The notes under the pieces were generated by a model. It made no database searches, was not told where the DNA came from, and worked only from the letters and a program-made list of their open reading frames with translations. The translations under genes were made by a program, and so were the position numbers. Shown piece after piece: positions 4,511 to 53,522 of a stretch of DNA of 64,000 nt; the stretch's first letter is position 1, and each line of letters opens with the position of its first letter. The DNA comes from Microcystis wesenbergii NRERC-220 (lineage in GTDB: Bacteria; Cyanobacteriota; Cyanobacteriia; Cyanobacteriales; Microcystaceae): the NCBI RefSeq assembly GCF_032027425.1, contig NZ_JAVSJA010000001.1, positions 1,922,001 to 1,986,000 of the forward strand. Direction: 5' to 3'.

Positions 4511-4795
4511 ATGAACACTATCCAACTGACAACGGAAATAGAAGATTTGATTGCTCAACAAATCAAAACAGGAAAATATCAAGATGATTTAGCCGTTATT
4601 GAAGAGGGATTGCGTTTATTGGCAGAAAGAGACAGAATTTACCGAGGAAGATTTGAAGAATTGAAACGGGAAGTTATGATTGGCGTTGAGGAATTAAGAC
4701 GACAGGAAGGAATTAATGCCGAAGAGGTTTTTTCAGAATTAGAAGAGGATTTACAACAAATAGAGGCTAAGGGTTTCCCGATGAGTCAGAAATAA
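4511..4795 (+). CDS. parD: ParD-type antitoxin
   Basis: A 94-residue acidic helical protein. Its N-terminus MNTIQLTTEIEDLIAQQIKT is a ribbon-helix-helix segment, followed by YQDDLAVIEEGLRLLAERD, the conserved ParD helix. The toxin ATG overlaps its stop codon (TAATG at 4793-4797), typical translational coupling. A second, nearly identical antitoxin begins at 6158; the two proteins match until about residue 60 and then diverge (GVEELRRQ against GVQELKRG). Confidence 0.85.
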   Translation: MNTIQLTTEIEDLIAQQIKTGKYQDDLAVIEEGLRLLAERDRIYRGRFEELKREVMIGVEELRRQEGINAEEVFSELEEDLQQIEAKGFPMSQK

Positions 4796-5091
4796 TGTCA
4801 AAGATTATTTTCTCACCCTCAGCTAGATTGGATTTAAAGCAAATTAATAGTTACTTGGCTGGGAAAAATCCGCAAGCTGCTAGAATTTTAAAAGAAAAAA
4901 TCCAACAGGCTTGTAAAAAATTAGCTAAATTCCCCAATCTGGGACGTAGGCGCGATGAGTTAATCCCTAGATTACGAAGTTTTTCAGTAGAAGATTATCT
5001 GATCTTTTATTTCCCTCTTGAAACCGGAATTGAAATCGCAAGAGTAGTCAGTGGATATAGAGATTTAGATGCTATGTTTGATGTTGATTAA
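4795..5091 (+). CDS. parE: ParE/RelE-fold toxin
   Basis: A 98-residue protein of the ParE branch: IIFSPSARLDLKQINSYLAG, NPQAARILKEKI and KFPNLGRRRDELIPRLRSFS followed by YLIFYFPLETGIEIARVVSG. ParE toxins poison DNA gyrase. The length is normal and no key segment appears missing, so this pair looks intact. It is translationally coupled to the parD gene ahead of it. Its 3' flank (GATGTTTGATGTTGATTAA) resembles the sequence at about 8285, upstream of the intact peptide precursor, which marks an internal duplication. Confidence 0.85.
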   Translation: MSKIIFSPSARLDLKQINSYLAGKNPQAARILKEKIQQACKKLAKFPNLGRRRDELIPRLRSFSVEDYLIFYFPLETGIEIARVVSGYRDLDAMFDVD

Positions 5092-7740: not shown

Positions 7741-7965
7741 ATGATGACATTAGAACAAGCTCTTATAACAGTTAATCAACTACCGATTGAACAGAGAGAA
7801 ATGTTAATAGAAATCATCAAAAATCAAATAATAGAATCCTATCGAGAAGAAATAGCCCAAAATGCTAAAGAAGCAAGGGAGGCTTTTCAAAGAGGAGAAT
7901 TAAAACCTCAACCCTTAGAAGATATTATTAATGAATTAAAAGCCAAATTAACAGAAGATGAATGA
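7741..7965 (+). CDS. antitoxin of a RelE-like pair
   Basis: A 74-residue helical, charged protein: MMTLEQALITVNQLPIEQRE then EREAF-like region AREAFQRGELKPQPLEDI. It ends with ATGA overlap to the next gene (7962-7965), a typical coupled toxin-antitoxin order. The sequence matches small cyanobacterial antitoxins often annotated as hypothetical; I rely mainly on context. Confidence 0.7.
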   Translation: MMTLEQALITVNQLPIEQREMLIEIIKNQIIESYREEIAQNAKEAREAFQRGELKPQPLEDIINELKAKLTEDE

Positions 7966-8255
7966 AAGAGATTATTGCAACAGAGAAGTTTAAACGATCA
8001 TTTCGTAAATTTGTCAAGCGTAATGCTCAACTTGAACAAAAAATTATTGAAACATTAAAGTTAATGCAAGAAGATATTTTTACACCTCAGTTAGCTACTC
8101 ATTCATTACAAGGAAAATTATTAGGATTAAAAGCTTGTTCTTGTGGTTATGATTGTAGAATTGTATTTTCTTTGGAAACAACAGAAACTAATGATAAGGA
8201 GCAAAAAGAGGTAATTATTCTAATTGATATTGGTACTCATGATCAGGTTTATTAA
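7962..8255 (+). CDS. RelE/YafQ-like mRNA interferase toxin
   Basis: A 97-residue protein with IIATEKFKRSFRKFVKRNAQ and a later HSLQGKLLGLKACSCGYDCR followed by IVFSLE, the pattern of type II RelE/HigB-like toxins ('plasmid stabilization' annotation). It overlaps the antitoxin by four bases. The C-terminal Asp-Ile-Gly-Thr-His-Asp-x-Val-Tyr (DIGTHDQVY) is characteristic, with a terminal Tyr and His that may be catalytic. It looks intact. Confidence 0.8.
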   Translation: MKEIIATEKFKRSFRKFVKRNAQLEQKIIETLKLMQEDIFTPQLATHSLQGKLLGLKACSCGYDCRIVFSLETTETNDKEQKEVIILIDIGTHDQVY

Positions 8256-8492
8256 TTTTATCTTAATCGCATTTTCGGGATTATATGTTTGATGTTAATT
8301 AAAAAAGCGATCGCATCCATCTAAGGGTATCATTTTTCCCCGTTCCCCAATAGCATCTGGTGGGGGTTTTCTTCGGGGAAATTTAAGCTTAAGCTTAACA
8401 AAAACTTCACAAAAACTTCACGGAAAACTATTGACAAGAAGATGTCAAGGCCGCTTGATTAAATTAATTAACATCATTGGAGGATATACCCC

Positions 8493-8633
8493 ATGAAAAC
8501 CAAAAAACTGACCCCTCGTAACGCTGCTCCTGTCCAACGGGAAAATAACGCTACCGTCTCTCGTGATGGCAATGCGATCGCTCCGCAATGGGTCAATCGG
8601 CGCATACCTTTTGCGGGAGACGACGCGGAGTAG
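8493..8633 (+). CDS. cyanobactin (piricyclamide-like) precursor peptide
   Basis: A 46-residue peptide. The leader MKTKKLTPRNAAPVQREN fits the 'KKxLxPxxxAPVxR' start of cyanobactin E precursors, which recruits the modifying enzymes. The tail FAGDDAE matches the C-terminal recognition sequence I recall from anacyclamide and piricyclamide precursors. A core ending in proline (…QWVNRRIP) sits directly before it, as macrocyclisation by PatG-type proteases prefers. The likely core has no Cys, Ser or Thr, so a heterocycle-free cyclic peptide is predicted; the N-terminal core boundary cannot be fixed. GGAGG lies 8-10 bases before the ATG. No pat-type cyclase/prenyltransferase genes are adjacent, but PatA-like proteases lie at 11.4 and 12.5 kb. 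Confidence 0.8.
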   Translation: MKTKKLTPRNAAPVQRENNATVSRDGNAIAPQWVNRRIPFAGDDAE

Positions 8634-8892
8634 TCCCCTTGATTCTAGCACGAACCTCAAATCAGGTCAAAAGTCTTTTTCTCCTTGCCAAGGCGCACGG
8701 TTGCTCCCTTGGAATTGACGCACAATCCTAGTTAATTCGGGAGTTTCGGATACCGGGCATCGGTGAAAAAGCCCCGGGAGCAGGGAAGCAGAGGTTGTTT
8801 CTCTTCTCGGTCCCCCTTTTCCTTGACTCACGAGTGCTAGAAGACTTAGGTTCAGGGAGATGAACCCGTGCCAATAGCTTACTTCCCCAGGG

Positions 8893-9427
8893 TTATCGGA
8901 TAGCGGTGTTCTTCTCCTTTGGCTTGTACTTCTGGCAAAAGCCCTTGTACTTTCTGGCGCATTCTTCTAGGCTGTCACCAAGTTTAAGAAAAGCAGGATG
9001 CCATTGAGTTAAGCCATCATCGGTTAAGAATGTAACGTAAGGTATTTAATGCCCTTTCTTTATCGGAAGGAGGGAAGCCATCGCAAAAATACCGTTTTTC
9101 CCAAAAGTGTCCTGTGCGATCCCCCCTAGCCCCCCTTGATAAGGGGGGAAGCCGAAGGCGGGGGGATCACATCGCCTTGTACCAGTTGAGAAAGTGCATA
9201 ATTTTGGGTAAATCTTCTGGTTGGGCAGGTTCGATCAGATAATGGAGATGATTAGACATGATACAGAGAGCATAAAGCTGAAACTGGTGTTTGTCTAAAG
9301 CCTTCTTGATGGCATAAAGAAATACCTCCAGGCATTCCCGCTTGGATAGTTTGAACTCTCGGTTATTGCAGCCTGTGGTGACGTGGTAGGAATAACCAGC
9401 TTGAAGATTTCGAGGTTTTCTGGGCAT
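8893..9427 (-). pseudogene. REP-associated tyrosine transposase (Y1), broken
   Basis: Starts at 9427 with MPRKPRNLQAGYSYHVTTGC and has the metal-binding His pair in SNHLHYLIEP and the catalytic-region NWYKAM. The frame then stops inside a 51-bp hairpin element (9118-9168). Beyond it the reverse strand continues with HFWEKRYFCDGFPPSDKERA and, after a deletion, QWHPAFLKLGDSLEECARKY, the normal C-terminal part of these enzymes, ending at 8893. The gene is therefore disrupted and shortened. The 8634-8892 stretch downstream carries a segment (CTTCTCGGTCCCCCTTTTCC) also found at about 5990. Confidence 0.75.
9118..9168. repeat. 51-bp hairpin insertion in the Y1 transposase
   Basis: Bounded by GATCCCCCC and GGGGGGATC with an inner CCCCCCTTGATAAGGGGGG hairpin. 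It resembles the 'CCCCCTTATCAAGGGGGG' arms of the MITE-like family elsewhere in the window. It interrupts the coding sequence of the transposase pseudogene. Confidence 0.6.
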
Positions 9428-9457: not shown

Positions 9458-10024
9458 ATGTTAATCACAAAACCCCGCTTTCAAACCTTTGCCGAATATC
9501 TACAATATGAGGATAATTCAGAGGAATCTTATGAATTATTTAACGGAGAATTGGTAGAAATGCCACCAGAATCAGGACTTAACTTTCAAATTGCTAATCG
9601 TCTTTTTCTAGTCTTTGCTTTGATGCTAGGAACAGATAGAGTCAGAGGACATGGTTTAGAATTAGAAGTGAGAGGTGAACCGAAAAACCGTTATCCTGAC
9701 CTAACCATTATTCGAGAAGAACATATTCAATTACTCTCCCAGAGAAATACGATTCTTCTTTCCATGTCACCCCCCTTATTAGTCATTGAAGTGGTTAGTC
9801 CGGGGGAAATCCAAAGAGAGAGAGATTACATCGCTAAAAGAAGCCAATATCAAGCTTGTGGGATTCCTGAATACTGGATAGTTGATCCTCAAACTCAAAC
9901 TATTTTAGTCTTAGAATTAAAAGGAGATACTTATGCAGAAATTGGTAATTTTAGCAGTGATGACTTAGTAAAATCTTCTATATTTGGTCAACTTAATTTA
10001 AAAGTTTCTCAAGTATTTAATTAG
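9458..10024 (+). CDS. Uma2-family putative endonuclease (first of three)
   Basis: A 188-residue Uma2 (DUF820) protein with a PD-(D/E)XK-like core: Glu in YELFNGELVEMPPE, Asp in RYPDLTIIRE, and IEVVSPGE followed by RDYIAKRSQYQACGIPEYWI and VDPQTQTILV. Uma2 proteins are abundant in cyanobacteria and their biological role is not settled. This is the first of three consecutive, non-identical Uma2 genes on this strand, separated by 14-17 bases. Confidence 0.85.
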   Translation: MLITKPRFQTFAEYLQYEDNSEESYELFNGELVEMPPESGLNFQIANRLFLVFALMLGTDRVRGHGLELEVRGEPKNRYPDLTIIREEHIQLLSQRNTILLSMSPPLLVIEVVSPGEIQRERDYIAKRSQYQACGIPEYWIVDPQTQTILVLELKGDTYAEIGNFSSDDLVKSSIFGQLNLKVSQVFN

Positions 10025-10038
10025 GCAAATTAACCCCC

Positions 10039-10617
10039 ATGATTACCGTCGAACCCATTACCTTAAACTTAAAATCCGTAAATTTAAGCGATGAGCAATT
10101 CTATCAACTTTGCCATAATAACGACGATTGGCGAATTGAAGAAAATGCCGAAGGAGAATTAATCATTATGCCGCCTGTTGGTGCTATTAGTGGAAATCGA
10201 GAAGCAGATTTAAACGCCGATTTGGTTATTTGGAATCGTCAAACAAAACTGGGTAAAGTGTTTAGTTCTTCCACTATATTTACCTTACCCAAGGGTGGTA
10301 AACGTTCCCCTGATGTCGCTTGGATTGCTAATCAACGCTGGGAAGCTTTACCCCGAGAAGAACAAGAAAAATTTGCGAGAATTTGTCCTGATTTTGTGAT
10401 AGAATTAAGGTCGCGCACTGATTCTTTAAGTCAACTCCAAGCAAAAATGCAGGAATATCTCGTCAGTGGCTTAAGACTAGGTTGGTTAATTGATCCCATT
10501 AGTCAACAGGTAGCCATCTATCGCCAAAATCAGGAAGTAGAAATCGTCTCATTACCAACCACCTTATCCGGGGAGGATGTTTTACCCGGATTTACTTTAG
10601 AATTACCCCTTTTTTGA
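10039..10617 (+). CDS. Uma2-family putative endonuclease (second of three)
   Basis: A 192-residue Uma2 protein with the most canonical motif set of the group: GELIIMPPVGAISGNREADL, RSPDVAWIANQRW, and PDFVIELRSRTDSLSQLQAK then MQEYLVSGLRLGWLIDP. It is spaced 14 bases from the previous Uma2 gene and 17 bases from the next, so an operon is likely. The nuclease fold is predicted from family knowledge; the cellular target is unknown. Confidence 0.88.
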   Translation: MITVEPITLNLKSVNLSDEQFYQLCHNNDDWRIEENAEGELIIMPPVGAISGNREADLNADLVIWNRQTKLGKVFSSSTIFTLPKGGKRSPDVAWIANQRWEALPREEQEKFARICPDFVIELRSRTDSLSQLQAKMQEYLVSGLRLGWLIDPISQQVAIYRQNQEVEIVSLPTTLSGEDVLPGFTLELPLF

Positions 10618-10634
10618 CCGGAGGAAACCCCTAG

Positions 10635-11288
10635 ATGATAGCAACTACAACAATTTCTCCTCAATTAACCATTCCACGCCTAGAAAATGGGGACAAGCTT
10701 ACTCGTCGTGAATTTGAGCGTAGATATAATGCTATGCCAAAGCTGAAAAAGGCAGAACTGATTGAAGGAATTGTTTATATTATGGCTTCTCCCCTAAGAA
10801 TTAAGAACCATGGTGAACCTCATGCTCAGATTATCACCTGGTTAGGTTTGTATCAAGCCTTCACCCCGAATCTGCAATTAGGTGATAATTGTACGGTTCG
10901 TCTTGATGCAGACAATGAACCTCAACCCGATGCACTATTAAGAATTAAAAATGGTGGACAATCAACGATTAGTGAGGATGGTTATGTCGAAGGTGCGCCA
11001 GAGTTAATCGTCGAAATTGCAGCGAGTACCGTCTCCCTTGACTTACATCAAAAACTTAATGTTTATCGCCGTAACCAAGTGCAAGAATATCTAGTCTGGC
11101 GAGTCGAAGATGGAGAATTTGATTGGTTTAGATTAACAAATGAAGAATATATTAAACTTGAACCGAACTCAGAAGGGATAATTTGTTCCCAGATCTTCCC
11201 TGGATTATGGTTAGATAGGGATGCTTTACTAGCCGGTGACTTAGCCAAGGTTTTAGAGGTTTTGCAATTAGGAATAGCTAGGAGATAA
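10635..11288 (+). CDS. Uma2-family putative endonuclease (third of three)
   Basis: A 217-residue Uma2 protein of a longer subtype: MPKLKKAELIEGIVYIMASP, EPQPDALLRI and APELIVEIAASTVSLDLHQK then RRNQVQEYLVWRVEDGEFDW. A GGAGG site precedes the ATG. It closes the tandem Uma2 run and lies just upstream of the truncated subtilisin fragment at 11362. Confidence 0.88.
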   Translation: MIATTTISPQLTIPRLENGDKLTRREFERRYNAMPKLKKAELIEGIVYIMASPLRIKNHGEPHAQIITWLGLYQAFTPNLQLGDNCTVRLDADNEPQPDALLRIKNGGQSTISEDGYVEGAPELIVEIAASTVSLDLHQKLNVYRRNQVQEYLVWRVEDGEFDWFRLTNEEYIKLEPNSEGIICSQIFPGLWLDRDALLAGDLAKVLEVLQLGIARR

Positions 11289-11361
11289 TTAATAGTGAAA
11301 TATAGCATTTTAATTCAATTAGCCTCGCCAAAACTATTACAACTAGCTGAGAAAATTACTA

Positions 11362-11709
11362 ATGACTAACCTCCCAACTATTCCAGGATTAAAAGAACTA
11401 CAAAAACAAACCAAAGGCGCATCAGAAATAACCGTCGCCATTCTCGATGGTGTAGTTGATACCGACCATCCCTGCTTCAAGGGGGCAGCTCTAACCCGTT
11501 TACCCACCCTCGTCCAGCATCAAGCCACCGCCTGGCAAATGTCCACCCACGGAACCCATATTGCCAGCCTCATCTTCGGACAACCCAACAGCGACATCCA
11601 AGGTATTGCCCTTAATCTTCAGGTTCTATCCCCAAGGCCCTCAACTGTTCCGCTAGGCGATCGGCTCGTTGTCGTTCCTGTTCGGCTCGTTGTCGTTCCT
11701 GTTGAGTAG
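11362..11709 (+). pseudogene. truncated PatA-like subtilisin, fused to antisense of uma2
   Basis: Starts LPTIPGLKELQKQTKG with the catalytic Asp in TVAILDGVVD and the catalytic His in STHGTHIASLIFGQP, followed by GIALN. These match the N-terminal peptidase S8 domain of PatA/PatG-type proteases. At about 11612 the sequence switches to the 3' end of the oppositely oriented uma2 gene, so the remaining residues (LGDRLVVVPVRLVVVPVE) are antisense of its glutamine/arginine repeats. The Ser part is missing and no activity is expected. Confidence 0.75.
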
Positions 11710-12403
11710 ATTCCTGGGAAGTTAACAACAAGTTACCTTCCCCATCCCACCAGCGAAGCCAGGGAAAGGATTGATTTTGGTATTCCCCCTGCCAAATTCC
11801 TAACTCTACCTTGAGAGGAACAATGGGATAATGACCGCGCTGATTAGGAGTCATTTTTTGGTAACGACCATTAACTAACTGGTACATCTCGATCTGGGCC
11901 TTGTTAACTTCATAAATTCCATAAAAAGGAATTTGAATCGCTCGCTCATAGATCCAAAATTTACCCTTGACAGGCGTTTTATCCCGTTCTTCTTCACCAT
12001 TGCCAGAGACAAATTCTAAGGCAATAACCGGTTCAATGGTTTCTTTCCACATCACAAAGGAACGCCGGACTTGACCCTCAATGGTTGTGGGGACATGGGG
12101 AACATAAAACCAATCGGGAGCAACAGCACCTTTTTCTAGGGATTCTGGATGCTCTGGCAATCGCCAATAAATCCCACAATCTCGACCCAGACAGTAATTA
12201 CCGTCAGGATGTAATTGCTCCAAAAGGGGTGTAATAGTATCCGTTAAAAGGTCTGCTTGGGGAGGCTCTTGATAGTTTTTCACAAAACTTCCATCTTTAT
12301 CGGGGAGTTGGGTGTGATCGGGTAAAGGGGAAGCGCAATAAACCGTTGCAGAAGGGTCCTGAATTGTGGTTGAGGGTTGTGCCGTTGGGGTGATTGCACT
12401 CAT
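11612..12403 (-). CDS. Uma2-family protein with C-terminal coiled coil
   Basis: A 263-residue protein. The Uma2 core spans roughly residues 40-215 (DTITPLLEQLHPDGNYCLGR, VAPDWFYVPHVP, PVIALEFVSGNGEEERD, KFWIYERAIQIPFYGIYEV). The last 30 residues are a charged repeat QQERQRAEQERQRADRLAEQ with a coiled-coil look, common at the end of this Uma2 subtype. A 3'-truncated near copy lies at 52383-52956. It is divergent from the protease-kinase gene with a 67-base shared promoter region, an arrangement also kept in the duplicate. Confidence 0.85.
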   Translation of the reverse strand: MSAITPTAQPSTTIQDPSATVYCASPLPDHTQLPDKDGSFVKNYQEPPQADLLTDTITPLLEQLHPDGNYCLGRDCGIYWRLPEHPESLEKGAVAPDWFYVPHVPTTIEGQVRRSFVMWKETIEPVIALEFVSGNGEEERDKTPVKGKFWIYERAIQIPFYGIYEVNKAQIEMYQLVNGRYQKMTPNQRGHYPIVPLKVELGIWQGEYQNQSFPWLRWWDGEGNLLLTSQESTQQERQRAEQERQRADRLAEQLRALGIEPED

Positions 12404-12470
12404 CTTTAATTCCCCTATTTTTGTTATCTAGCTTTTATTCTATAACTGTTCTTGAAAACCTGCAAAAACT

Positions 12471-15341
12471 ATGCCTGATCTCAATGCTATCCCCGGAATG
12501 ACTGCTCTTCGCTCCCATACCAAAGGCGATCCACGCATCAAAATCGCCGTTCTTGATGGACCGATTGACTTAGACCGCGCCTGTTTCCAAGGAGCAAATA
12601 TTACCCGCCTTGATCCCTATTGGTCGGAAGAATTTCCCATCGATCCGCAACACTTACAAGCGTTTTTAGATGTAGAAAAAAGTGGCAAAAGTGAAGAAGA
12701 AAAAGAGGATCTGTTCAAAGAAGCAATCCCCGATCAAAACATCCGTGAAAGTTTGCATTTGCGCTTCCATGCTAACCATATTATCAGCACCATTTGTGGA
12801 CAGCCAGATTCACCAGTAGAAGGGATTGCTCCTAACGCTACTGTAATTAATATTCCCATCGCCTATAGCAACGAAGATTTTATTAATCCCCTCAATCTTT
12901 CTAGGGCAATTAGTACCGCGATTGAACAGGGAGTTAATATTATCCATTGTGCCGCTTGTCACCCAACTCAAAGCGGATTAGCTCACGAATTTATTGATAA
13001 AGCAATTCGTCAGGCTCAAGCTAATAATATCCTAGTGATTGCCCCCGGAGGTAATGATAAAGGAGAGTGTTGGTGTGTTCCCGCAGTATTAGAAAATGTC
13101 CTAACAGTGGGAGCGATGAAAGATACGGGAGAGCCATTTAAATTTAGTAATTTTGGTGGTAAATATGCAACTCAAGGGATTCTCGCTCCCGGAGAGAATA
13201 TTTTAGGCGCTCAACCCGGAACCGATGACCCCATCCGCAAAAAAGGGACTAGCTGCGCGGCTCCCATTGTGACAGGAACAGCCGCTTTATTAATGAGTTT
13301 ACAATTAGAACAGGGGTTATCTCCCGATGCAGAAGCAGTAAGAGCCGCCTTGATTAATAGTGCCATCCCCTGCGATCCTAATCAAGTAGAAGAACCGGAA
13401 CGCTGTTTATTAGGAAAAATTAATATTGCGGGTGCTTACGAATTAATTACCGGACAAAAATTATCAAGCTTACCCAGTTCAATAACAGAAAACGCCATCA
13501 CCTCACCTATACTCAGTGGCAAATACATTTTAGATCCACAACCTATAGCAACGGGAAGTTTTAAAATCTATAAAGCTGTTGATGCAACTAACCCCGGCGT
13601 AAATCTTGCTATTAAGGTATATCAACTAAATCTGGAGGAACAACTAGCAACTGGTAATAAAACTTTTTTCAAATCCTTGAGTAAGGAGATGGCAAATGAA
13701 GCCTTAAAGAGAGAAATACAAGCTCTCACAGAGTTAAAACATCCTAGAATTATCAAACTGCTTGATTATGGTGTTGATGAACATACAGATAATGAGTTTT
13801 TGGTGCTTGAATGGATGGACTGGAATTTAGAAGATTATCTTCAAGTTTATCCCTATAAAGATTGGCATGACTTTTATATAAATATTGCCTTACCGATTCT
13901 TGAAGGTCTGGAATTTTGTCACCGTCATCACTATATCCACAGAGACATTCATCCGACAAATATTCTTATTGACAATCAAAGTAATGTCAAGCTTGCTGAT
14001 TTTAACGTTTCCACGAAAATTGACAATAACGATAATAGTAATATTACCTTAGTCTCTCTGTTGAAACTTGGGCGAGGTATTTATGTTCCTCCTGAACCGG
14101 GTAATGGGCTAAACAGCTATACTAGAGATGTGTTTGCCTTTGGCATTTTAGTGTTAGATTGTTTGACTGATGTTGAATTGTCTAATTATGAAGATGTTTT
14201 AGCTGCACTACAAAAACTTGATGCACCACTACCCATTAAAAATTTAATTGCAGCGACAATTGCCCTTGATCCCGAAAAAAGACCGGCTACAGCCAAAGTT
14301 CTTTTAAGAGAATTACAAGCAATTGAAAACCTAGAACAGCTTAAAAAGCCCTTAGTCAAGGAATCTGAAATAAAACTCAATTCCCATCTGGTTAGTGGAA
14401 ACACAAATCTTAATCAAGTATCATCAAATATCGCTGTCACAACTCCTGTTTCTGCAAACTTGATCAATGCTAGTCAAGCAAGCATTACTCCTAGTCAACG
14501 GTCAAACCTGGTTTATGTGTTAGGAACTTTAGGTTATGACTTCGGCACAGAAGCGCGTCGGGACACCTTTAAACAGTTAATGCCAACCATCACGATCGAT
14601 AATCTTGAATTACCATCCAATCCCTACGATGCGCGGCAAATGGTAGATTATTTAGAAAGTAATCTATCAGAAACTAAGTCTTTAATTTGGACAGTCAATT
14701 TAGAACTAACTCCCATCTATGCAATTAAACCCGTGGGAGCTTTTGCCGCCGAGATTTATCAAGTCATGCAATATATGTTAGCGGGTCAAATATTGCCAGA
14801 AGCTGACGAAGATTATGTGGAAAGGGTGAGTATACCTGGTATGCTGACCGAGGAAACCGTGAGACTTTTTTCTGGTCAAATTGTTCCCGTCATCAAGGTT
14901 AATAGTCCCCGGGGAATGTATGGCTGGAAAGTTAATACTCTCATTGAATCAGCGCTAGAAACTGTTAGCGCAGAACATGAAATCGCCGATGAAGCGAGGA
15001 TGCGTCGTTCTCTGACCAGTTTCTTAAATCGCATTTATTATGACTTACGCAATGTCGGACAAATCGCCCGCGATCGCGCTTTAAATTTTGCGGCTACTAA
15101 CGCTTTTCAAGCCGTACAAACCTTCTCCCAAGCAGTAGCGATGGGAATGGAACTACACAGTATTGAAGTAGAAAAAAGCCCCTTCTGTCGCTACGGAAGT
15201 GAATGCTGGGATGTGAAATTAAAATTCTTTGATCCCGAAAATGGTCTGCGTGCCAAACGAGTTTTTCGCTTTACCATTGATGTCAGCGATCGCACTCCAG
15301 TAACCTTAGGAGAAGTGCGCTCTTGGGCTGTTTCTAAGTGA
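12471..15341 (+). CDS. PatA/PatG-like protease with inserted protein kinase domain
   Basis: A 956-residue protein in three parts. Residues about 1-325 are a subtilisin (S8) domain: Asp29 in KIAVLDGPID, His100 in RFHANHIIS, oxyanion Asn in IAPGGND and Ser261 in GTSCAAP. Residues about 350-620 are a Ser/Thr kinase-like domain with Lys382 (LAIKVYQ), HRDIHPTNIL (Asp492) and ADFNVS, where the usual DFG is DFN. Residues about 680-956 match the C-terminal domain of cyanobactin PatA/PatG proteases (VYVLGTLGYDFGTEARRD, LIWTVNLELTPIYAIKPVGA). PatA cleaves the precursor leader. The precursor lies 3.8 kb upstream, but a direct partnership is an inference. A degraded partial copy starts at 53024. Confidence 0.85.
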   Translation: MPDLNAIPGMTALRSHTKGDPRIKIAVLDGPIDLDRACFQGANITRLDPYWSEEFPIDPQHLQAFLDVEKSGKSEEEKEDLFKEAIPDQNIRESLHLRFHANHIISTICGQPDSPVEGIAPNATVINIPIAYSNEDFINPLNLSRAISTAIEQGVNIIHCAACHPTQSGLAHEFIDKAIRQAQANNILVIAPGGNDKGECWCVPAVLENVLTVGAMKDTGEPFKFSNFGGKYATQGILAPGENILGAQPGTDDPIRKKGTSCAAPIVTGTAALLMSLQLEQGLSPDAEAVRAALINSAIPCDPNQVEEPERCLLGKINIAGAYELITGQKLSSLPSSITENAITSPILSGKYILDPQPIATGSFKIYKAVDATNPGVNLAIKVYQLNLEEQLATGNKTFFKSLSKEMANEALKREIQALTELKHPRIIKLLDYGVDEHTDNEFLVLEWMDWNLEDYLQVYPYKDWHDFYINIALPILEGLEFCHRHHYIHRDIHPTNILIDNQSNVKLADFNVSTKIDNNDNSNITLVSLLKLGRGIYVPPEPGNGLNSYTRDVFAFGILVLDCLTDVELSNYEDVLAALQKLDAPLPIKNLIAATIALDPEKRPATAKVLLRELQAIENLEQLKKPLVKESEIKLNSHLVSGNTNLNQVSSNIAVTTPVSANLINASQASITPSQRSNLVYVLGTLGYDFGTEARRDTFKQLMPTITIDNLELPSNPYDARQMVDYLESNLSETKSLIWTVNLELTPIYAIKPVGAFAAEIYQVMQYMLAGQILPEADEDYVERVSIPGMLTEETVRLFSGQIVPVIKVNSPRGMYGWKVNTLIESALETVSAEHEIADEARMRRSLTSFLNRIYYDLRNVGQIARDRALNFAATNAFQAVQTFSQAVAMGMELHSIEVEKSPFCRYGSECWDVKLKFFDPENGLRAKRVFRFTIDVSDRTPVTLGEVRSWAVSK

Positions 15342-51342: not shown

Positions 51343-52382
51343 AGACTTGTTGCGTAATAGTGGCATAATGGGGAAGAAACAATGATTGGATATCCCCTTG
51401 AATGCTGAACATTGGCCGAATATTGCATCAAGATAGACTCTTGAGAGCGACCACAGGACTCAATAGAAGAGCGTTTGAGACCTTGTTAGAGAAATTTGAA
51501 CAGGTGTATTTGGCGGAAGCAGACAACAGGGAAAAGGCAAGAAAAAGAAAAATCGGAGCTGGCAGGAAAGCTAGATTGCAAAGCATCAAAGAGAAATTAT
51601 TCTATATCCTGTTTTACTTCAAGTGCTATCCAACCTTTGACTTGGCGGCAGTATGGTTCGATTTTGACCGCTCACAAGCGAATAGATGGGTACATCGCCT
51701 ACAACCAATTTTAGAAAAGGTTTTAGGAGAAAAAAAGGTACTGCCCCTTAGAAAAATCGAGAGGCTCGAGGAATTTATCCAACATTTTCCAGAGGTGAAA
51801 GAAGTGATAGTCCCTCGGACCTTCATACCGATAGCTCGTCCCAAAGACGCGGAAAAACAGAAAGAGAACTACTCAGGAAAGAAAAAGCGATGCACCCGAA
51901 AAAACCTAGCAGCTAGTGCAGAAGACAAGAGGATTTTGCTGTTAACCCCTAGGAAAGCGCGGAAAAACCCATGATAAAAAGATACAAGAACAAGAAGACT
52001 TAATTGGCGGCATCCCTGCTCAAATCCCAGTCTTGGTTGATTCAGGATTTCAGGGAGTGCAAAAACAGTATGTAAATATCCGTTTGCCCCACAAAAAACC
52101 GAAGGGAGGAGAGTTAACAGCAGAACAAAAACAAGAAAATCGAGAACTAGCCAAAGAAAGAGTTGTGGGTGAAAATGCTTTTTCTGGGGTGAAAAGATAC
52201 CGTGCAGTTTCCGATATTTATAGGAATCGTGTAGCTAATTTTGATGCTCAATTAATCTTAACGGCTTGTGGATTATGGAATTTTTATGGGTGCGGCAGCA
52301 TAAGCATTAATTAAAAGGAGAAGCCAGCTGAACTTCTCACAAAACAATTCATTCGGCTTTTTCTTATGGGAGCAACAAGTCT
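51343..52382 (+). mobile_element. IS5-type insertion sequence, copy 2
   Basis: Indistinguishable by eye in length and encoded proteins from the copy at 21001. The right end lies directly against the truncated 3' end of the uma2 copy (52383), so the insertion or a later rearrangement removed the uma2 end. No matching duplication is visible on the left flank. Confidence 0.85.
51402..52314 (+). CDS. IS5-type transposase in two frames, copy 2
   Basis: Same two-frame layout as at 21060: 51402-51974 and 52033-52314 with predicted proteins identical to those of copy 1, including the +1 shift between ILLLTPRKARKNP and the VLVDSGFQGV part. Retention of the same shift in both copies argues for a programmed event or a transposase supplied in trans. 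Confidence 0.75.
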
Positions 52383-52956
52383 AATGACCGCGCTGATTAG
52401 GAGTCATTTTTTGGTAACGACCATTAACTAACTGGTACATCTCGATCTGGGCCTTGTTAACTTCATAAATTCCATAAAAAGGAATTTGAATCGCTCGCTC
52501 ATAGAGCCAAAATTTACCCTTAACAGGCGTTTTATCCCGTTCTTCTTCACCATTGCCCGAGACAAATTCTAAGGCAATGACCGGTTCAATGGTTTCTTTC
52601 CACATCACAAAGGAACGGCGAACTTGACCATCAATAGTCGTGGGGACATGGGGAACATAAAACCAATCGGGAGCAACAGCACCCTTTTCTAGAGATTCTG
52701 GATGCTCTGGCAATCGCCAATAAATCCCACAATCTCGACCCAGACAGTAATTACCATCAGGATGTAATTGTTCTAAAAGGGGTGTAATAGTATCCGTTAA
52801 AAGGTCTGCTTGGGGAGGCTCTTGATAGTTTTTCACAAAACTTCCATCTTGATCGGGGAGTTGGGTTTGATCAGGTAAATGGGAAGCGCAATACACCGTG
52901 GTCGAAGGTTCCTGAATTGTGGTTGAGGCTTGTACCGCTTGGATCATTGAACTCAT
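52383..52956 (-). pseudogene. truncated Uma2 protein, copy of 11612-12403
   Basis: It begins MSSMIQAVQASTTIQEPSTT and then follows the intact protein (SFVKNYQEPPQADLLTDTIT, GNYCLGRDCGIYWRLPEHPE, PVIALEFVSGNGEEERD) with few changes until NQRGH, where the IS5-type element cuts it off. The last 60-70 residues including the coiled coil are missing, but the PD-(D/E)XK-like core is mostly present. Confidence 0.85.
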
Positions 52957-53023
52957 CTTTAATTCCCCTATTTTTGTTATCTAACTTTTATTCTATAACT
53001 GTTCTTGAAAATCTGTAAAAACT

Positions 53024-53522
53024 ATGCCCGATCTCAATGCTATCCCCAGAATGACTGCTCTCCGCTCCCAGACCAAAGGCGATCCACGCATCAAAATCGC
53101 CGTTCTTGATCGACCGATTGACTTAGAGCGAGCCTGTTTTCAAGGAGCAAATATTACCCGTCTTCATCCCTATTGGGCGGAAGAATTTCTGATCGATCCC
53201 CAACACTTACAAGCTTTTTTAGAGATAGAAAGTAGCGGTAAAAGTGATGAAGACAAAGGGGGAATGATAGAGGCAGCAATCCCAGATGAAAACATTCGGG
53301 CTAGTCTCTATTTACGCTTCCATGCGAATCATATTATCAGCACTATTTGCGGTCAACCTGATTCACCCACCCGTAGAAGGAATTGCTTCTAACGCCACTG
53401 TAATTAATATTCCTATTGCCTACGGTAATGATGATTTCATTAATCCCCTGAATTTATCCCGTGCTATTAGTACCGCCATTGAACAGGGAGTGAATATTAT
53501 TCGAGGAGTCGGTCGCCAGTAG
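53024..53522 (+). pseudogene. decayed copy of the PatA-like protease start
   Basis: MPDLNAIPRMTALRSQTKGD and RFHANHIISTICGQPDSP match the protease-kinase gene at 12471. A frameshift near 53368 changes PVEGIASNATVINIPIAYGN into the next frame, and homology ends at about 53503 (STAIEQGVNII), followed by repeat DNA. It keeps Asp and His but lacks the Ser, kinase and C-terminal domains. Order and divergent orientation with uma2 are the same as at 11.6-13.0 kb. Confidence 0.85.

Follow-up and report, generated by a model that had tools for sequence, protein, structure and literature searches.

The closest described counterparts of the locus analyzed here are the pir clusters of Microcystis aeruginosa PCC 7005 and NIES-843, for which the relevant sections of PMC3428304 give a similar leader, follower, Pro-ended core and gene order and describe no heterocyclase. 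In the pathway as outlined in PMC4663559, an A protease frees the N-terminus of the core and a G protease cyclises it. Tailoring domains joined to such proteases have also been published (fusion sections of PMC4603692): an oxidase fused to PatG, and methyltransferases fused to PatA-type proteins. In these the oxidase is at the N-terminus, and the chemistry is other than that of a kinase. We recognized no kinase-bearing PatG in the open-licence literature, screened mostly by title and start of abstract, nor in the available portions of PMC4558948, PMC4603692, PMC4663559, PMC12838216 and PMC6162287.

The window, a stretch of 64,000 nucleotides of the genome of Microcystis wesenbergii NRERC-220, contains a piricyclamide-type precursor gene and the remains of such a cluster. 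The NIES-843 cluster is likewise inactivated, by insertion elements (PMC3428304, cluster descriptions), whereas the pirA gene in the window is cut by a deletion. The window genome further differs from PCC 7005 and NIES-843, as these are presented there, in that no pirF was detected and in that its PirG carries a protein kinase domain, the published PCC 7005 PirG being 689 aa long and that of the window 956 aa. We consider it very probable that pirE heads a decayed pir cluster and that the kinase of PirG occupies an exchangeable slot as an accessory domain. A kinase-bearing macrocyclase is not ordinary, unlike the precursor.

The precursor gene and the remains of its cluster

The precursor gene, pirE (8493..8633, +), encodes 46 residues (MKTKKLTPRNAAPVQRENNATVSRDGNAIAPQWVNRRIPFAGDDAE) and has a ribosome-binding site read from the sequence, GGAGG (8479..8483, +), 9 nt 5' of its ATG. 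Its product matches NCBIfam TIGR04446 (pren_cyc_PirE), the anacyclamide/piricyclamide precursor model, at 83.7 bits (E 7.9e-24, cut-off 35) over model positions 1-51 of 51, and Pfam PF19158 at 41.4 bits (cut-off 25). This full-length score above the cut-off is joined by the other features of the PirE/AcyE family, namely a conserved leader (residues 1-32), a variable, Pro-ended core (WVNRRIP, residues 33-39) and the follower FAGDDAE (residues 40-46). A sequence-only reading of the window had picked out this frame, likened its leader and FAGDDAE tail to those of cyanobactin precursors and noticed a Pro-terminated core without Cys, Ser or Thr. Translation and the GGAGG site bear out the frame, the likeness lies far above chance on both models, and the core is as described. 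The search that reading had suggested, against precursor models and other Microcystis genomes, returned the family and TIGR04446-type matches in 8 of 12 genomes, this one included (7 of the 11 others). Within the genome itself (4.68 Mb, two contigs, 100% complete) pirE is the single TIGR04446 match over the cut-off, a second stretch scoring just 12.5 bits in the profile search. A promoter scan of 8250-8800 found nothing on the pirE strand.

The 7-aa core is given by the rule of a 32-residue leader, which yields the printed core for 7 of the 7 other precursors considered here whose cores appear in Tables 1 and 3 of PMC3428304. WVNRRIP itself is printed in Table 3 of that paper (Leikoski 2012), where a bloom of 1987 yielded it in 2 of 122 clones, so the precursor, core included, is already known and is ordinary when taken alone. 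Compared with the precursors of its relatives, it differs little in leader and follower. It is scarcely credible that pirE is an open frame arisen by chance or an error of assembly: its shortness might suggest so, but the E value to TIGR04446, the matches in the other Microcystis genomes and the identical core in an independent bloom library (PMC3428304, Table 3) all argue the contrary.

The gene had been placed between a RelE-like pair and a broken Y1 transposase, and domain matches on both sides agree with that placement. Upstream lie a gene of no family over the cut-off (7741-7965) and a YafQ/RelE-type gene (7962-8255; PF15738, 33.5 bits), and downstream a truncated Y1/IS200-type transposase (9167..9427, -) that covers 73 of 121 model positions at 42.3 bits. 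The order in the window continues with three Uma2 genes recognized by domain match and gene order, a (9458..10024, +; PF05685, 114.8 bits), b (10039..10617, +) and c (10635..11288, +), followed by a pirA remnant comprising codons 1-83 of the leader protease (11362..11610, +; 85.5% to residues 1-83 of 648). The frame of this remnant runs on to 11709, inside sequence of the Uma2 gene d side, across a deletion junction at 11609..11611 that joins the pirA interior to that side, as delimited by blastn blocks 10039-11611 and 11609-13462; 2.2 kb of the genome G004, holding the rest of pirA, pirB and pirC, are absent there. Beyond the junction, Uma2 gene d (11612..12403, -; domain match and gene order) adjoins pirG, as in the clusters compared, and pirG (12471..15341, +), which begins 3.8 kb downstream of pirE, encodes a 956-aa cyanobactin macrocyclase of the G clade with an extra kinase domain (TIGR03895, 838.4 bits, cut-off 421). 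A second pir remnant (Uma2 d and the pirG start; 52367..53500, +) is a 90% copy of 11812-12943 and holds ORFs at 52381-52956 (-) and 53024-53392 (+).

The claim that pirE stands as an orphan without cyclisation genes thus fails against a complete pirG and pirA codons 1-83, 2.7-6.7 kb downstream of it, together with the Uma2 genes that commonly accompany pir clusters. Its wider form, that biosynthesis genes are absent, holds in part: there is no full-length pirA nearby and no match to the TIGR04445 prenyltransferase (pirF) anywhere in the genome at E 0.01, but the macrocyclase gene is present. Searched for at the window locus, pirB and pirC (labels assigned by the gene order in the cluster descriptions of PMC3428304) were not found there. 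Of the genes of an active cluster, pirA, pirB, pirC, pirF and pirG, with pirB and pirC judged at the locus, pirG alone is complete. We reject the orphan precursor because the gene order matches the pir clusters of other Microcystis genomes, pirE occupying the pirE position of the fuller clusters with the remaining cluster genes downstream. On this comparison pirE heads a half-dismantled pir cluster in which pirE and pirG retain open frames and from which the missing genes were lost by deletion; if this lineage ever had a second precursor, like G003 and NIES-843, it is missing along with pirB and pirC.

Among the fuller clusters, that of G004 has the order pirE, pirF, two Uma2 genes, pirA, pirB, pirC, Uma2 on the opposite strand and pirG, with sequence related to the truncated Y1 transposase of the window between pirE and pirF. 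G003 (three contigs) follows the order of G004, except that it has three Uma2 genes and that another pirE stands between pirC and the last Uma2 gene. In G010 the Uma2 genes precede pirE and pirA is split across two frames, in G011 pirE immediately precedes pirF, and in G001 the first pirE lies at the coordinate printed for NIES-843 (PMC3428304, cluster description). NIES-843 carries a 97% copy of the gene pair at 4511-5091 of the window between two of its pirE genes, and hence toxin-antitoxin surroundings are ordinary for pir clusters. As a separate observation, G011, a second strain of the species in the window, has pirE and pirF on one contig and no pirA beside them in the stretch examined.

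PirG and its kinase domain

PirG has the architecture of a macrocyclase, with an S8 domain (12471..13463, +) and PatG_D plus PatG_C (14489..15338, +; PF18047, 48 bits; PF18065, 122.7 bits), and in a tree of 66 proteases it falls in the G clade, not the A clade, beside the Microcystis PirGs. Its putative catalytic triad, assigned by analogy with subtilisins, is D29/H100/S261, of which D29 is conserved in at least 90% and H100 and S261 are invariant in an alignment of 16 rows. The S8 and C-terminal domains match, at E 1.2e-99 or lower, the PatG macrocyclases of PDB 4aks, 4akt and 4h6x and the C-terminal domain of 4uvq, entries titled thiazoline oxidase/subtilisin-like protease. Between the two parts, the slot that usually holds a linker is replaced by a Ser/Thr protein kinase domain (13464..14488, +; PF00069, 101 bits, cut-off 31.7), and the replacement is sharp, as DNA identity to other strains extends to 13463 and begins again from 14489. 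No chain with protease and kinase together was found among the best 60 of 668 PDB chains. A kinase domain is likewise found inside the peptide-maturing class III/IV lanthipeptide synthetases, but PirG matches their models weakly (34-36 bits, far under the cut-offs of 575 and 650 bits) and no lyase or lanthionine cyclase domain was found in PirG.

The residues expected of a kinase are in place, namely K382 (beta3 Lys), E415 (alphaC Glu, by eye), D492 (HRD Asp), N497 and D510 (DFG Asp), with two departures, His at HRD+2 and DFN instead of DFG. Kinase activity is therefore predicted with some uncertainty. Full-length PirG modelled with AlphaFold gave low confidence throughout and supports no domain (mean pLDDT 47.2, pTM 0.36, the kinase region mostly below 50, with 2 of 16 input sequences containing the kinase), so the kinase is identified here from its sequence. 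The body of PirG is under purifying selection between the window and G003 (dN/dS 0.09 for S8 and 0.05 for the C-terminal part). For the kinase, the window compared with a broken fragment in G011 gives dN/dS 0.25, a weaker constraint than on the PirG body in a comparison with one pseudogene partner.

The linker slot and probable movement of the kinase

The six Microcystis genomes with both pirG halves show three kinds of slot content: a kinase in the window, DUF4915/TIGR03032 in G004 (361 bits), and a short linker in G003, G008, G010 and, by gap length, G001. Outside the slot, the PirG of the window is 96.4% identical to that of G003 with the plain linker and 95.6% to that of G004 with DUF4915. 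The short Microcystis linker resembles, by eye, those of Anabaena sp. 54 and Crocosphaera, and is for that reason probably older in Microcystis than the kinase. At L073:9058-12054 the slot of a macrocyclase is filled by a complete DUF4915/TIGR03032 domain.

A kinase-bearing PatG/PirG is also present in Dolichospermum sp. LEGE 00240 (G162, locus L106, 1028 aa), where the kinase is set into a linker common to its relatives, and in Microseira wollei (G441, 1075 aa), where it scores 90.2 bits. The nearest relative of the Microseira PatG, in G452, is 74% identical outside the slot and has a methyltransferase there, its start lying at a contig edge. In G011 a 0.8-kb pirG-kinase fragment (L074:8457-9225) covers 221 aa at 92% identity and extends from the kinase into PatG_D; it is a pseudogene remnant, interrupted by a stop and a frame break. 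We reject an assembly error of one genome as the source of the fusion, which is complete in G162 and G441 and partial in G011. The Microseira and Dolichospermum kinase clusters retain their A proteases, and that of Microseira includes a heterocyclase-like gene and another precursor type (labels by eye). Of the two PirE-type kinase clusters, one has lost the prenyltransferase and the other keeps just 88 aa of it, which with n = 2 may be chance. The 88-aa frame is that of Dolichospermum sp. LEGE 00240 (L081:5512-5778; 79% to PirF residues 229-296); its first residues look by eye like the PirF start, and it adjoins a Y1-type transposase-like gene.

Slot length is 32-147 residues in 62 of the 66 proteases of the tree and above 300 in 4, which is not a frequency, the loci having been picked partly for long frames and proteins with fewer than 200 residues of either part, as well as duplicates, having been dropped; G452, G434 and G529 were added after this tree. 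At least 117 of the 388 genomes surveyed have a protease match, and the matches of 44 of these were covered, so slot inserts are a lower bound. Several apparent inserts were set aside. In G075 the long gap in the protease coincides with two separate frames (386 and 290 aa) with stops between, an interruption and not a fusion. In G434 (L151), a protein that is A-type by eye and on a long branch, the linker is some 400 residues of PVQQGMPVHYQQMGVVPA-like repeat. Among the long PatG frames of 1050-1754 aa, those read (L076, L077 and L154) are extended at the N-terminus instead, by putatively oxidase-like parts. Separately, L114:6408-9994, L087:4757-6430 and L153:5251-7656 encode one or two methyltransferase domains with PatG_D/PatG_C and no protease domain, the first of the two L114 frames being labelled by eye only.

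The three slot kinases form one clade with respect to 16 other cyanobacterial kinases (support 100/99; the tree took in 19 of the 29 matches, 20 having had loci and the short G011 fragment being left out), and IHP[TS]N is common to them, as against [IML]KP[SEN]N in all 16 others; the LEGE 00240 slot kinase has HYD for HRD. Among the nearest non-slot kinases, those read (G500, G158, G222) are cyanobacterial frames of about 1150-1210 aa that differ in having an HRDxKP motif and no protease, and whose long C-terminal part is putatively helicase-like. The hosts tell another story: a single clade of the three kinase-bearing macrocyclases is rejected (p-AU 5e-11, and each pair too, on a quick tree with the group chosen after the tree was seen), and parsimony on the host tree needs three changes. 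The simplest account of these trees would be one slot-kinase lineage passed between macrocyclase genes. The window and Microseira proteins differ about as much in the kinase (59-67%) as in the body (60%), for which reason an old presence of the kinase with many losses is still conceivable.

The comparison with the slot contents of relatives indicates that the linker slot receives different domains by cassette exchange. In a bolder form, in which our doubts slightly outweigh our confidence, the linker would be a modular plug-in slot in which the kinase lineage, DUF4915 and methyltransferase are exchanged between genes about 95% identical and between genera, creating macrocyclase-kinases that would add an ATP-dependent step on the peptide or the enzyme to a ribosomal peptide pathway in which the literature screen turned up no kinase. 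PatG-type enzymes serve as tools for engineering cyclic peptides. A natural slot able to accept entire enzyme domains between two stable parts would, if true, offer chemistry not yet described as well as a rule for design. The fusions also allow a direct test of the role of the PatG C-terminal domain, because that domain is the constant partner in all the fusions found.

Role of the kinase and fate of the product

Our mechanism treats the kinase as an accessory domain that would be held beside the cyclase. Slot kinases are accompanied by three PirE-type cores, WVNRRIP, NRPGHRIP and SLQVVIYGGYIP (the last two by the follower rule, by eye), and of these only SLQVVIYGGYIP has any Ser, Thr or Tyr. 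Phosphorylation of the core cannot be a general rule, as two of the three cores lack hydroxyl residues, and the cores of the kinase clusters are unlike one another, so that no common substrate is visible. The leaders of these precursors contain Ser and Thr. With low confidence, we suggest that the kinase acts on the leader, the enzyme or a partner more than on the core, and action on the core of the window is the less likely given that WVNRRIP has no Ser, Thr or Tyr.

Two other roles have to be weighed against this. The kinase could tailor the peptide by phosphorylating it, either ahead of cyclisation or afterwards, much as the PatG-fused oxidase oxidises heterocycles. The methyltransferase in the same slot of G452, the putatively oxidase-like N-terminal parts of L076 and L077 and the retained catalytic residues of the kinase are in keeping with this, as are the published oxidase-PatG fusions (PMC4603692, in the portion cited above). 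Of the three intact cores of PirE type found next to slot kinases, however, two offer no Ser, Thr or Tyr to such an enzyme, and the Microseira cluster has, by eye, a heterocyclase-like gene and a different precursor type, and we regard tailoring of this kind as unlikely. The kinase could also be a mobile or stray domain that was inserted by chance and has no role in cyanobactin making. This would fit the broken G011 copy, the decay of the host cluster and the model of PirG, which gives no support for a folded kinase. It would not readily explain why three genera have the domain in frame at one and the same slot, why these kinases form one clade with IHP[TS]N against KP in the 16 others, or why the A proteases are kept in the Microseira and Dolichospermum clusters, and chance insertion seems to us rather improbable, if not strongly so. 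The domain is in frame in all three genera and retains its key residues there, and we infer that it is used, as the accessory domain proposed above.

As for the peptide itself, a PirA-type protease would cut PirE after Gln32, while PirG would make the cut in front of Phe40 and close the ring between Trp33 and Pro39 to give cyclo(WVNRRIP), with a calculated [M+H]+ of 922.537. With PirA broken and no pirF found in the genome, this product is most likely not made by the strain, unless another A-type protease acts in trans. Such help, in which pirE and pirG would work with one of two other A-type proteases to give cyclo(WVNRRIP) or a relative, is possible and not likely. The genome does contain two complete A-clade proteases (651 and 656 aa, both over the TIGR03895 cut-off), the pirE leader and follower are near those of relatives, pirG is intact and under purifying selection, and a PCC 7005 piricyclamide is reported as made from a precursor gene not found in the main cluster (PMC3428304, product section). 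But in the 66-protein tree a long branch (0.65) common to both of these proteases separates them from PirA, one of them adjoins its own candidate precursors, and the typical PirA is missing; silence of the window cluster, most likely, remains our reading.

Two side observations concern the surroundings of the A-type proteases. At L032:6758-10213 (C1:3149757-3153212 of the same genome) three small, Cys-rich frames come after an A-type cyanobactin protease; they have a leader of cyanobactin appearance, LPIQAxPxxR, and match nothing in Pfam or NCBIfam at E 0.01. One of them matches 4 of 359 genomes, its own included (E 5.5e-8, 1.2e-4 and 9.9e-4 for the other three, the last with an internal stop), and in those three genomes the match lies no more than 0.6 kb from the TIGR03895 protease of that genome; the frames are a candidate unnamed peptide family. 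At L031:16779-19424 a 292-aa frame of YcaO type, which at 205.8 bits stays just below the TIGR03604 cut-off of 219, is accompanied by a 63-aa partial repeat of its end, both 5-8 kb from an A-type protease, and these frames are perhaps the remains of a heterocycle-forming cluster.
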